From Arthrobacter sp. NicSoilC5 (GTDB lineage Bacteria > Actinomycetota > Actinomycetes > Actinomycetales > Micrococcaceae), in the NCBI RefSeq assembly GCF_019977395.1, contig NZ_AP024660.1, forward strand, positions 2,108,001-2,172,000: a DNA stretch of 64,000 bases, given 5' to 3'. Positions 29,002 to 31,747 of this stretch are shown piece after piece (position 1 is the first letter of the stretch; every line of letters begins with the position of its first letter). Both the position numbers and the translations under genes were made by a program. The notes beneath the pieces were generated by a model. That model had not been told where the DNA came from, did not search any database, and saw only the letters and a program-made list of their open reading frames with translations.

Positions 29002-29214
29002 TCAGGCGGTCTCGGTGTGGCCGTCCACAACAGCACCTTTGAGGTACTGTTCGACGGCGTTTTCGGGGACACGGTAGGAGCGGCCGAAGCGCACCGCGGG
29101 CATTTCGCCTGAGTGAACCAGGCGGTAAACAGTCATTTTGGAGACGCGCATGACCTCGGCCACTTCAGCCACGGTCAGGAACTTCGCGTTGGAGAAGTTC
29201 TGTTCTGCCGACAT
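29002..29214 (-). CDS. Excisionase-type helix-turn-helix DNA-binding protein
   Basis: A 70-residue protein. The MerR/excisionase-like winged helix FLTVAEVAEVMRVSKMTVYR is followed by LVHSGEMPAVRFGRSYRVPE, and the protein ends in an acidic tail. No integrase or phage gene lies nearby, so this is a chromosomal regulator rather than a true excisionase. The ATG at 29214 is preferred because AAGGAA lies 9 nt upstream. It precedes the bS22 gene by 151 nt in the same direction. Confidence 0.88.
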   Translation of the reverse strand: MSAEQNFSNAKFLTVAEVAEVMRVSKMTVYRLVHSGEMPAVRFGRSYRVPENAVEQYLKGAVVDGHTETA

Positions 29215-29368
29215 TTCCCTATTTTCCTTTGCTGACGGATGGACAACAGTGACCCCAGGTACGTGCCAATGCGGTGTTCCGATGCTGAGCCATCCACCAA
29301 CCACCTAAACAGATACTCTAGATGTTCATGTGGCAGATGTGAAAGTAGTGTTTCCCCTATTTCGCCCC

Positions 29369-30484
29369 CTAATTCGAGGCCCGGCGCTTCCGTGCCGACG
29401 CCGCCAGCTGCTCCAGGACTGACGCGGAAACATCCCAGTCCATGCAGGCGTCGGTAACGCTCTGGCCGTAGACCAGTTCCGCCCGTCCCGCGGCGTGTTC
29501 CGCAACGTCAAGGTTCTGGGCGCCGCCCACCAGGAAGCTTTCCAGCATCACACCGGCCACTGCCCGGGCCGCTGCGCCGCCTTCCTCAAGCTGGGCACCG
29601 ATCTCCAGCGCCACCTCAGCCTGCCGGTGGTGGCTCTTGCCGCTGTTGGCGTGGCTCGCATCAACGATCAGGCGGGGGTTGAGCCCCTTGCCCGCCAGTT
29701 CGGTGGAGGCGCGTTCCACATCGGCCGCCGAGTAGTTGGGGCCCTTCCGGCCGCCGCGGAGGATGACGTGCGTGTCGGGGTTTCCTGCCGTTGCCACCAG
29801 CGCGGCCCGGCCTTCGCCGTCGATCCCCAGGAAGGCCTGGGCCGCCGCGGCGGCACCGCAGGCATCGATGGCAACCTGCAGGCCGCCGTCGGTCCCGTTC
29901 TTGAAGCCAATGGGCATGGAGAGCCCGGAAGCCAGCTGGCGGTGGATCTGGCTCTCGGTGGTGCGGGCACCGATGGCTCCCCAGGAGATCAGGTCCGCCA
30001 TGTACTGCGGGCTGATCGGCTCCAGGAATTCAGTGGCGGTGGGCAGGCCCAGCGCCGTGACCTGCTGCAGGAACTGCCTGGCGGTGCGCAGGCCGGTCAC
30101 CATGTCATGGCTGCCGTCCAGCCGCGGATCGTTGATCAGGCCCTTCCAGCCCACCGTGGTGCGCGGCTTCTCGAAGTAGGTCCGCATGACGATCAGCAGG
30201 TCTTCCTTGTGCTTCTCGGCCTGGCTGACCAGCCGGCGGGCGTACTCCAGCCCGGCCTTGGGATCGTGAATGGAGCAGGGGCCCACGATGACCAGCAGGC
30301 GGTCGTCCACGCCGTCCATGATGGCGCGCACTTCGTCGCGTCCGCGTTCGACGACGGCGGCCTCCCGGTCCCCCAGCGGCAGTTTGGTGAGAAGCGCCGA
30401 CGGGGCGGGCAGCGCAGTGAATTCGCTGACGCGCAGGTTGGACGTGGACTTGGTGGCGCTGGCGGCTGCTGTTGCGGTGCTCAT
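29369..30484 (-). CDS. aroG: 3-deoxy-7-phosphoheptulonate (DAHP) synthase, class I
   Basis: A 371-residue enzyme condensing phosphoenolpyruvate and erythrose-4-phosphate, the first step of aromatic amino-acid synthesis. Conserved segments are VGPCSIHDP, EFLEPISPQYMADLISWGAIGARTTESQ (read in two parts), the SGLSMPIGFKNGTDG loop, ILRGGRKGPNY and DASHANSGK. These place it in the AroF/AroG/AroH class, normally feedback-inhibited by an aromatic amino acid. Most other actinobacterial DAHP synthases are class II, so this is likely a second isoenzyme. AGGA lies 8 nt before the ATG. A 112-nt leader carries an aromatic-rich leader peptide and competing hairpins, indicating attenuation-type control. Confidence 0.95.
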   Translation of the reverse strand: MSTATAAASATKSTSNLRVSEFTALPAPSALLTKLPLGDREAAVVERGRDEVRAIMDGVDDRLLVIVGPCSIHDPKAGLEYARRLVSQAEKHKEDLLIVMRTYFEKPRTTVGWKGLINDPRLDGSHDMVTGLRTARQFLQQVTALGLPTATEFLEPISPQYMADLISWGAIGARTTESQIHRQLASGLSMPIGFKNGTDGGLQVAIDACGAAAAAQAFLGIDGEGRAALVATAGNPDTHVILRGGRKGPNYSAADVERASTELAGKGLNPRLIVDASHANSGKSHHRQAEVALEIGAQLEEGGAAARAVAGVMLESFLVGGAQNLDVAEHAAGRAELVYGQSVTDACMDWDVSASVLEQLAASARKRRASN

Positions 30485-30549
30485 GTTCGGGGTCCTGTTC
30501 CAGATGGGAAGCGGGCCCGGATTTCAGAACCCGCCGGAGAAACGGCGAA

Positions 30550-30631
30550 GGGCAGAGAATGATCTCTGCCCTGTTGGCTCTGAAGGAAGTTGGATGCGTG
30601 TCAGTTAGACGCGGGCCCCTCCAGAGCCAAC
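30550..30631 (-). promoter_or_regulatory. Attenuator-like competing hairpins upstream of DAHP synthase
   Basis: In transcript order: segment 1, GTTGGCTCTG (complement of 30622-30631), lies in the leader peptide just after its aromatic codons. Segment 2, CAGAGCCAAC (complement of 30573-30582), pairs with segment 1 over 10 bp. Segments 3/4 form hairpin GGGCAGAGA-TCAT-TCTCTGCCC (30571 to 30550). CAGAG occurs in both segments 2 and 3, and CTCTG in 1 and 4, so alternative pairings compete. A ribosome stalled at the aromatic codons would cover segment 1. No long U run follows hairpin 3/4, so termination may be weak or Rho-aided. Confidence 0.6.
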
Positions 30632-30660
30632 GAAAAATACGCATACCAACGGTTAGTCAT
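30601..30660 (-). CDS. Leader peptide MTNRWYAYFSLALEGPASN upstream of DAHP synthase
   Basis: A 19-codon open frame ending TGA, with Trp-Tyr-Ala-Tyr-Phe at residues 5-9, all three aromatic amino acids within five codons. It starts 7 nt after a TATGGT -10 element with a 17-nt spacer to TTGCGG, so the transcript would begin at or next to its ATG. It ends 116 nt before the aroG start. Its codons overlap segment 1 of the competing hairpins. This is the classical design of an amino-acid attenuator leader; expression is inferred. Confidence 0.65.
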   Translation of the reverse strand: MTNRWYAYFSLALEGPASN

Positions 30661-30667
30661 GGAAGAG

Positions 30668-30696
30668 ACCATAAACCCGGCACACGGCGGCCGCAA
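30668..30696 (-). promoter_or_regulatory. Promoter for the aroG leader: TTGCGG-17-TATGGT
   Basis: On the minus strand, -35 TTGCGG (complement of 30691-30696) and -10 TATGGT (complement of 30668-30673) are separated by exactly 17 nt. The leader-peptide ATG lies 7 nt downstream of the -10. Confidence 0.6.
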
Positions 30697-30727
30697 AATC
30701 GGTTGCGTCACATTCCGGCGCCGCAGC

Positions 30728-31747
30728 CTACCCCAGGAGCTTCCGCAGGAACTGCAGCTGGCGGATCCAGTGGTGTTCCTGGCCGCCCTCATGGTTGTTA
30801 AACCGGTACACCTCAATGTCCTTCACGGCACCGGTGGCCGATGAGGCGTGGGTGCCGGTCCCGTAGGCGTTGTAGCTGGCGAACACCGTGGACGGCGGGC
30901 AGATGTCATCCATTTGCGCAGCTGAGTACAGCGCCGGAACGGTGGCCCAGCGGGCCAGGTTGACGCCGTCGAAATAGTTCAGGACGCCAAGTGCGGCGTC
31001 GTAGCGGTCCCGGTGCCGCGCCAGGAACTGGGCGATCTCCGGATAGGGCCCCCGCGGAGTGATGTCGATGGCACGGGGAAAGTCCTGCAGGAAGGGGACG
31101 TCGGGCAGCGCGGCGATGACGCCGTCGAGCCGTCCCGCGGTGAGCCCCGCCGTGGCCACCACCAGGCCACCGCCCTGGCTGACACCGGCCAGCACCACTT
31201 TGGCGGGATCGACGGCGGGGTGGGCCTGGGCAGCCTCCACCGCGCGGAAGGCGTCCACGTAGACACGGCGGTAGTAGTAGTCCTCCCGGCTGGCGATGCC
31301 CCTGGTCATGAGGCCCGCGTGCGCCACATCCCCCGCGGAGGGGTGGGGATCCGCGGTGTCCCCCAGCGTGCCGCCGTACCCCTGGCCCCGGGTGTCCATG
31401 ATCAAGTGTGCGTACCCGGCCTGTGCCCACCGTGTGTCCTGGTTGGCCAGGCCGCGGCCGCCGGAATAGCCAATGTAGTTCACCACCACCGGCAGCCTGA
31501 CGCCTGCCTCCCGGTTGGCCGGCAGGTGCAGCCAGCCTTTGACGGGCGCGCCGCCGAAGCCGGAGAAGGTGACGTCGAACGTATCGATCACCGTGAGGTA
31601 GTTGTCCACCGGTTCGAAGGTTGCGTCGAGCGGAAAGGCCCGCGCTTCGTCCAGGGTGGCATCCCAGAACGCCTTGAGGTCACCCGGCGGTGTGACCTCG
31701 GAGGTATAGCTGCGGAGCTGGGACAGGGGAAGGTCGAAGAGGGGCAT
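30728..31747 (-). CDS. Acetylxylan esterase/cephalosporin-C deacetylase family (CE7)
   Basis: A protein of about 339 residues, typical for CE7 esterases (about 320). Nucleophile elbow GVSQGGG, oxyanion region MDTRGQGYGG, Asp in AAQMDDICPPST and His in FNNHEGGQEHH. These enzymes remove acetyl groups from imported short oligosaccharides and lack signal peptides, as here. It is last in the rhamnose operon, starting 2 nt after rhaB (TAG-GA-ATG), so it probably deacetylates rhamnose-containing pectic fragments rather than xylan. An ATG at 31762 would overlap rhaB by 13 nt and is less likely. Confidence 0.88.
   Translation of the reverse strand: MPLFDLPLSQLRSYTSEVTPPGDLKAFWDATLDEARAFPLDATFEPVDNYLTVIDTFDVTFSGFGGAPVKGWLHLPANREAGVRLPVVVNYIGYSGGRGLANQDTRWAQAGYAHLIMDTRGQGYGGTLGDTADPHPSAGDVAHAGLMTRGIASREDYYYRRVYVDAFRAVEAAQAHPAVDPAKVVLAGVSQGGGLVVATAGLTAGRLDGVIAALPDVPFLQDFPRAIDITPRGPYPEIAQFLARHRDRYDAALGVLNYFDGVNLARWATVPALYSAAQMDDICPPSTVFASYNAYGTGTHASSATGAVKDIEVYRFNNHEGGQEHHWIRQLQFLRKLLG

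Follow-up and report, generated by a model that had tools for sequence, protein, structure and literature searches.

A candidate ribosome-mediated attenuator with an aromatic leader peptide upstream of the DAHP synthase gene in Arthrobacter and related actinobacteria

In Corynebacterium glutamicum, the aromatic leader peptide AroR lies directly upstream of aroF, which we take to encode a 3-deoxy-7-phosphoheptulonate (DAHP) synthase of class I, and the primary paper on AroR is that of Neshat (2014). Regarding its regulation, passages of a 2025 review report that transcription of aroF rises on phenylalanine limitation and that tyrosine has no effect (PMC11802643), passages of a further paper call AroR a translational regulatory leader peptide and name both Phe and Tyr (PMC7356990), and a passage from small-RNA work in C. 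glutamicum gives an aroF leader peptide with Phe-Tyr-Phe (PMC4046766). The locus described here, from the 64,000-nucleotide stretch of Arthrobacter sp. NicSoilC5 DNA that was analysed (the window), likewise has an aromatic leader peptide directly upstream of a class I DAHP synthase gene. It differs from AroR, as the latter is represented in one review and in paper passages, in having Trp-Tyr-Ala-Tyr-Phe (WYAYF) in place of Phe-Tyr-Phe and in RNA segments that have diverged. The Corynebacterium-like locus L178, which has Phe-Tyr-Phe, matches the covariance model of the element (R1, see below) over its full length (28.4 bits, E 0.00037 for 299 kb searched), and the attenuator described here is probably related to the Corynebacterium case.

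In trp-type attenuators, such as trpL of Escherichia coli and the trpL leaders of C. glutamicum and Streptomyces, the regulatory codons stand beside the first arm and alternative 1:2, 2:3-like and 3:4-like helices are formed; the present locus shares both traits, whereas its output hairpin, 5:6, is without a U-tract and an extra hairpin, 3:4, stands between segments 2 and 5. Leader peptides of biosynthetic genes without a typical Rho-independent terminator include LeuL1 of Streptomyces, which is reported to be leaderless (PMC8079986), and the mycobacterial cys leaders (Seliverstov 2005, PMC1262725). These resemble the present leader in the lack of a clear terminator and differ from it in amino acids and genes, and no set of competing helices was found for them in the passages of the two papers. 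Among the matches listed in the open-access literature, there was no report on this leader in relatives of Arthrobacter.

The original prediction, which covered positions 30550..30696, had placed promoter-like hexamers, an ATG, a WYAYF leader and hairpins upstream of a DAHP synthase, and all of these were found on the minus strand where they had been placed, in the order TTGCGG, 17 nt, TATGGT, a leader ATG 7 nt further on, the leader ORF, the hairpins and then the DAHP synthase gene (Table 1). The leader ORF thus carries codons for products of the pathway that it precedes. The interval ends before segments 5 and 6 (30511-30535). The enzyme encoded at 30484-29369 was identified by the NCBIfam model aroFGH (475.6 bits, cutoff 173.2) and by PF00793 (E 3.6e-85), and close named relatives as judged by this protein include Pseudarthrobacter sp. 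C4D7 (95%) and Fe7 (97%). Downstream of it, a short ORF (29002-29304) contains a stretch, EVAEVMRVSKMTVYRLVHSGEMPAVRFGRSYRVPENAV, that looks excisionase/MerR-like by eye.

Table 1. Features of the leader region and the DAHP synthase gene, in window positions
Feature	Position	Strand	Basis
-35-like TTGCGG	30691..30696	-	Sequence; TTTGC/TTGC near the same place in many Micrococcaceae loci (by eye)
-10-like TATGGT, 7 nt ahead of the leader ATG	30668..30673	-	Sequence; TANNNT conserved across relatives
Leader ORF, MTNRWYAYFSLALEGPASN*, 19 codons, probably leaderless	30601..30660	-	ORF and conservation
Trp-Tyr-Ala-Tyr-Phe, leader codons 5 to 9, with Tyr8 and Phe9 as sensing codons in the model	30634..30648	-	Stall modelling
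Segment 1, GTTGGCTCTGGAGG, leader nt 30-43, within the ORF	30618..30631	-	Comparison of helix 1:2
Segment 2, CCTTCAGAGCCAAC, partner 1 or 5	30573..30586	-	Alignment and alignment-free test
Hairpin 3:4, GGGCAGAGA tcat TCTCTGCCC, then TTCGCCGTTT; suggested RNA-polymerase pause element	30550..30571	-	Compensatory changes; U content
CGCC, 5' strand of helix C, partner GGCG 30535-30532	30544..30547	-	Compatible with 2:5, excluded by 5:6
Segment 5, GGCGGGTTCTG, partner 2, 6 or (long RNA) the Shine-Dalgarno region	30525..30535	-	Comparison and folding
Segment 6, GGGCCCGC, 3' strand of output hairpin 5:6, without U-tract	30511..30518	-	Comparison and folding
ACAGGA, presumed Shine-Dalgarno of aroG	30493..30498	-	Sequence; before the start in most of 30 aligned relatives (by eye)
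Class I 3-deoxy-7-phosphoheptulonate (DAHP) synthase, ATG at 30484	29369..30484	-	NCBIfam and Pfam

For comparison, 80 loci were fetched by protein, their related DAHP synthases being the best 80 of 578. One single TANNNT was present within the 40 nt upstream of the leader ATG in 77/77 scored loci from this set (L062, L074 and L079 were missed by the pattern), and it ended 6 nt from the ATG in 38 loci, 7 nt in 38 and 8 nt in one, while the same offsets taken 40 nt farther upstream gave TANNNT in 1/77. This fixed spacing makes the leader AUG the probable start of transcription, with a leader ORF that is probably leaderless. A stricter E. coli-type promoter scan gave no match for the leader promoter, so the promoter call is based on position and conservation.

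Regarding RNA structure, the region 30660-30485 folds with z = -5.0, and none of 200 shuffles was equally stable. The first long arm, segment 1, begins 2 nt past the Phe9 codon, in agreement with the original prediction that it lies inside the leader right after the aromatic codons, and it pairs with segment 2; the competing partner of segment 2 is segment 5, outside the interval first reported. The motif CAGAG/CTCTG, proposed as common to the arms of both hairpins, is present in the window, but it is not conserved and was rejected as the switch, since L103 and L105 keep helix 1:2 and have another sequence in 3:4.

In a MAFFT alignment of 29 sequences made without use of structure (A2), the set of helices 1:2, 3:4 and 5:6 was paired in 98.3% of cells, compared with 37-57% when the set was slid along the alignment. 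Cells changed on both sides numbered 44, against 14.2 in shuffles, while the 18 further pair types were not above shuffles (19.2). Helix 1:2 was paired in 98.5% of cells, with two pairs changed on both sides, and hairpin 3:4 in 98.9%, with compensatory change in five of its nine pairs. Helices 2:5, C and 5:6 were paired in 96.6-100% of cells (C in 100%) with one-sided changes only among the 29 sequences, and for these three helices A2 therefore gives consistency and not covariation; in the wider set described next, C has CG, TG and TA types. Column-shuffle controls were uninformative (500/500 for 2:5, and for 5:6 a covariation score at least as high in 493/500 shuffles).

The covariance model R1 was built from 29 sequences and contains helices 1:2, 3:4 and 5:6, without 2:5 or C. 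A search of 100 sources gave 129 matches, of which 95 were kept (94 distinct), and in the resulting alignment, which is fitted to R1, the paired fractions over the 95 were 0.95 for 1:2, 0.99 for 3:4, 0.94 for 5:6, 0.82 for 2:5 and 0.92 for C. An alignment-free test compared each lineage's own partner with those of other lineages in 37 representatives, hand-picked from the 95 and, being related, not independent. Segment 2 paired with its own tail, which holds segment 5, at -19.15 versus -17.05 kcal/mol (0/20000 permutations as low), with the own tail in the best quartile for only 17/37; the corresponding values for segments 1 and 2 were -28.89 versus -21.56 kcal/mol (0/20000; 34/37). The negative control of segment 1 with the tail, where no pairing is expected, went in the opposite direction (19377/20000), and a reversed-tail control for 2:5 was weakly significant (-15.19 versus -14.43, 210/20000), so composition accounts for part of the signal between segment 2 and the tail. 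Overall, comparison and modelling support the competing helices 1:2, 2:5 and 5:6. Conservation of the aromatic codons and compensatory stem changes were both seen in relatives, which excludes that the leader and its stems lack conservation. A further possible helix, 0:0', joins leader nt 11-22 and 62-72 (30639-30650 with 30589-30599; GTTGGTATGCGT with ACGCATCCAAC), so that the Trp-Tyr codons pair with post-stop sequence; it crosses 1:2, and visual inspection suggests that its two strands have changed together in some relatives (L065, L076).

The consequence of covering segment 1 was modelled on RNAs ending just beyond segment 6, for 61 hand-chosen leaders of the 78 extracted, of which 60 were scored (L069 was dropped by the pattern). 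Masking weakened 5:6 in 60/60 homologs, from a mean of 9.0 to 0.19 pairs, and raised 2:5 from a mean of 0.02 to 7.6 pairs. With no ribosome, the means were 7.0 pairs for 5:6 and 1.1 for 2:5, and 2:5 was already ahead in some Microbacterium-type relatives. In the wider set, 5:6 dropped by more than one pair in 82/95 and 2:5 gained more than three in 70/95, a full flip being absent in 25/95. With dinucleotide-shuffled tails, segment 2 still gained at least 5 pairs in 221/384 controls, compared with 40/48 real sequences; in such GC-rich RNA, masking alone is thus weak evidence, the analysis was downgraded as a stand-alone proof, and the case for a switch is carried by conservation and co-variation. 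Taken with these, the models point to mutually exclusive helices of which the first arm is within reach of a stalled ribosome.

For individual codons, the ribosome edge was set at the first base of the A-site codon +12, an assumption taken from toeprint distances. The predicted flip in the window occurs as this edge moves from leader nt 32 to 33, so that stalls at Trp5 (edge 25) and Tyr6 (28) would leave 1:2 intact, while stalls at Tyr8 (34) and Phe9 (37) would flip the switch. The 26-nt occlusion centred on the codon that is used in a model of M. tuberculosis ilvB1, as given in a passage of that paper (PMC13236596), moves the edge by ~2 nt and returns the same verdict for each codon. Across 93 leaders, with 1:2 counted as lost when below 5 pairs, predicted loss occurred at 62/92 Phe, 15/135 Tyr and 4/97 Trp codons. 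The proposal that one cluster senses tryptophan, tyrosine and phenylalanine jointly is therefore not upheld: stalls at Trp5 and Tyr6 do not reach far enough into segment 1, and in the modelling phenylalanine is the best candidate signal. This is consistent with what the review cited above says of AroR in Corynebacterium. In L178 (leader MRNWRFYFEWGSGR), Phe8 is predicted to flip the switch while Tyr7 and Phe6 are not, which is agreement with the C. glutamicum report and not proof. In Brachybacterium-type leaders, no aromatic codon flips the modelled switch.

The reading that we prefer, at a probability of about 0.62, is a ribosome-mediated attenuator that responds mainly to charged Phe-tRNA, with Tyr codon 8 as a second input, and controls the DAHP synthase gene. 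Its conserved elements and pairings come from comparison and computation, its switch and codon specificity from modelling. Transcription would start at the AUG of the leader, and ribosomes would load on the 5' end; RNA polymerase would then make segments 1 and 2, followed by hairpin 3:4, where it may pause before reaching segment 5. With aromatic tRNAs charged, the ribosome would reach the stop codon and leave segment 1 free, 1:2 would form, and segment 5 would be left for segment 6, hairpin 5:6 lowering expression. A ribosome stalled with its A site on codon Tyr8 or Phe9 would cover enough of segment 1 to let segment 2 pair with 5 together with helix C, making 5:6 impossible and allowing the gene to be expressed. 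As the output, transcription would end early at 5:6, a hairpin lacking a U-tract, possibly with the help of a factor.

Regarding this output, a pattern scan detected no intrinsic terminator in 30420-30760, and the 10 nt past segment 6 had a mean U fraction of 0.14, with at least 5 of 10 in 2/95 sequences, so that, in this region and this set, the output hairpin does not have the form of an intrinsic terminator ending in a U-tract. The logic of trp and his attenuators that had been ascribed to the locus thus holds in that a ribosome-mediated aromatic attenuator is well supported, while the intrinsic terminator that this logic requires was not found by the scan. Because of this, the output step is left as either termination at 5:6 or translational control.

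Translational attenuation would use the same 1:2/2:5 switch, with segment 5 (GGGTTCTG with CAGGACCC) covering the aroG Shine-Dalgarno unless paired with segment 2. Like ermC-type translational attenuation, in which a stall in the leader also re-pairs segments and exposes the start region, the full window leader is predicted to open: the probability that the Shine-Dalgarno region is unpaired was 0.02 with no ribosome, 0.34 with the leader released, 0.61 on a Tyr8 stall and 0.71 on a Phe9 stall. The absence of a U-tract terminator from the scanned region also speaks for this explanation, as does the term translational given to C. glutamicum AroR in the passages of PMC7356990. However, among 31 homologs hand-chosen from the 78, masking gave a Shine-Dalgarno access gain of >0.2 in only six, all of Arthrobacter type including the window and none of Microbacterium type (the counting regions of segments 6 and 7 overlap partly in short leaders); in the Microbacterium-type homologs, the segment 6 region pairs with the Shine-Dalgarno region in both states. 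The element thus differs from the ermC type in this limited release and in sensing an amino acid rather than a drug, sequestration by segments 5 and 6 was dropped as the common output, and we regard translational attenuation as rather unlikely. We lean towards transcriptional attenuation at 5:6 as the output: among the modelled effects of a stall, the loss of this hairpin is the most general, and the review reports transcriptional control of the Corynebacterium relative.

Less probable still is a reading in which hairpin 3:4 is the actual terminator and is influenced by the leader in some way that does not involve the 2:5 switch. The 10 nt past 3:4 are U-rich (mean U fraction 0.48, at least 5 of 10 in 65/95), and L132, L134, L149 and L103 have a clear terminator form there, but 3:4 is present in both modelled states, no conserved pairing of it with segments 1 or 2 was seen by eye, its sequence is wholly different in L103 and L105 where 1:2 is kept, and an unregulated terminator at this place would leave the conserved downstream segments pointless. 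As it forms in both states and has no visible conserved pairing to 1 or 2, hairpin 3:4 is read as a putative pause element that separates the two parts of the switch.

The leader peptide itself is widely conserved. A leader of the same type was detected by rule (three or more aromatics in a stretch of 5 residues) in 78/80 of the loci from the best 80 of 578 and recognised by eye in the remaining two, L062 and L074, and the distance from leader ATG to downstream start was ~159-185 nt in 61 of them with start sites assigned by hand. Third codon positions were compared among 59 leaders of Micrococcaceae type, which comprise the window and L002-L061 minus L029 (frameshift) and L059 (shorter leader); at codons 4-14 they were identical in all pairs, compared with 0.703 in three conserved blocks of aroG. 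An NCBIfam search with the peptide gave nothing useful.

The near invariance of the peptide in Micrococcaceae-type loci could suggest that the short ORF makes a functional small protein and that the RNA structure is secondary. This is very improbable, as the wobble bases are invariant too and the frame is not kept: L029 and L089 carry one extra base after codon 11 that shifts the frame past the aromatic codons (MTNRWYAYFSLCSGGARV), leaving the WYAYF codons and RNA segments intact, and in L107 and L178 the RNA of segment 1 lies in a different reading frame, again with aromatic codons and RNA retained. Given these cases, the C-terminal peptide sequence is probably conserved for the sake of the RNA. 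The frameshifts in L029 and L089 represent a natural test that the C-terminus of the leader peptide is dispensable.

A chance ORF beside unrelated hairpins has next to no probability: the window does contain many short ORFs (726 overlapping entries of 10-30 aa), but conservation across families with compensatory changes refutes a pure chance origin. Four of these entries, from two loci of which the leader is one, have 4 aromatics in 5 residues, and ten Markov-1 random windows gave one such entry in total.

Regarding distribution, R1 gave this locus as its only match within the window's genome and matched in 43/297 genomes of the order and 31/394 of the class, the two samples overlapping. Among the matches listed, 51/55 loci (window included) precede a class I DAHP synthase, while L132-L135 do not. 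The proteins downstream in L132 and L133 have DAHP_synth_1 (scores of 26.2 and 57.9 bits, cutoff 25.5) and chorismate mutase type II domains of Pfam. In L132-L135, the leader RNA thus stands before a gene that in L132 and L133 encodes a fusion of chorismate mutase with part of a DAHP-synthase-like domain, a dnaE-like gene lies downstream (by eye), and in L132 and L134 hairpin 3:4 has a U-tract. Of 51 further stretches picked by their DAHP synthase (L137-L164, L174-L196), 33 have an aromatic leader (3 in 6 residues), a count that leaves out an unrelated-looking ORF in L143; none of the 33 is among the 12 stretches from family f35. The DAHP synthase of L052, from a record titled Sporosarcina beigongshangi, is 79% identical to that of the window and follows an Arthrobacter-type leader; the name or the assembly of this record is probably wrong.

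Rfam 15 gave no gathering matches in the 64 kb window, the best sub-threshold match on the strand of the element having E 3.6. As judged by comparison of sequences, the element is an RNA family across several actinobacterial families, without an Rfam 15 match. The "pheA" candidate cis-regulatory motif (Weinberg 2010), which shares with it the occurrence in Actinobacteria and an aromatic gene name, is represented here by its entry in Table 1 of that paper rather than by its sequence, and is given there as ambiguous as an RNA and with no Rfam accession (PMC2864571); it may be a previous record of the present element or have nothing to do with it.

The element belongs to a known kind of switch, with a less usual output. 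Tentatively, at what we consider less than even odds, it would represent an actinobacterial RNA family that is not yet catalogued. Its single leader peptide, in which Phe comes last among the aromatic codons and decides the outcome, would control entry into the entire aromatic pathway, and would do so by way of an output hairpin other than an intrinsic terminator; a distinct pause-like hairpin would separate the two parts of the switch, and the element would also occur ahead of a DAHP-synthase-like/chorismate-mutase fusion. Should the output be an ordinary terminator missed by the scan, this would be an ordinary attenuator. If true, the finding would show that control of the Corynebacterium type is shared by related leaders across several families of actinobacteria, at the point of entry into a pathway that is used industrially; it would offer the rule that the aromatic amino acid sensed is set by the distance from codon to segment 1, and it would provide a system for studying attenuation in bacteria with few predicted intrinsic terminators.
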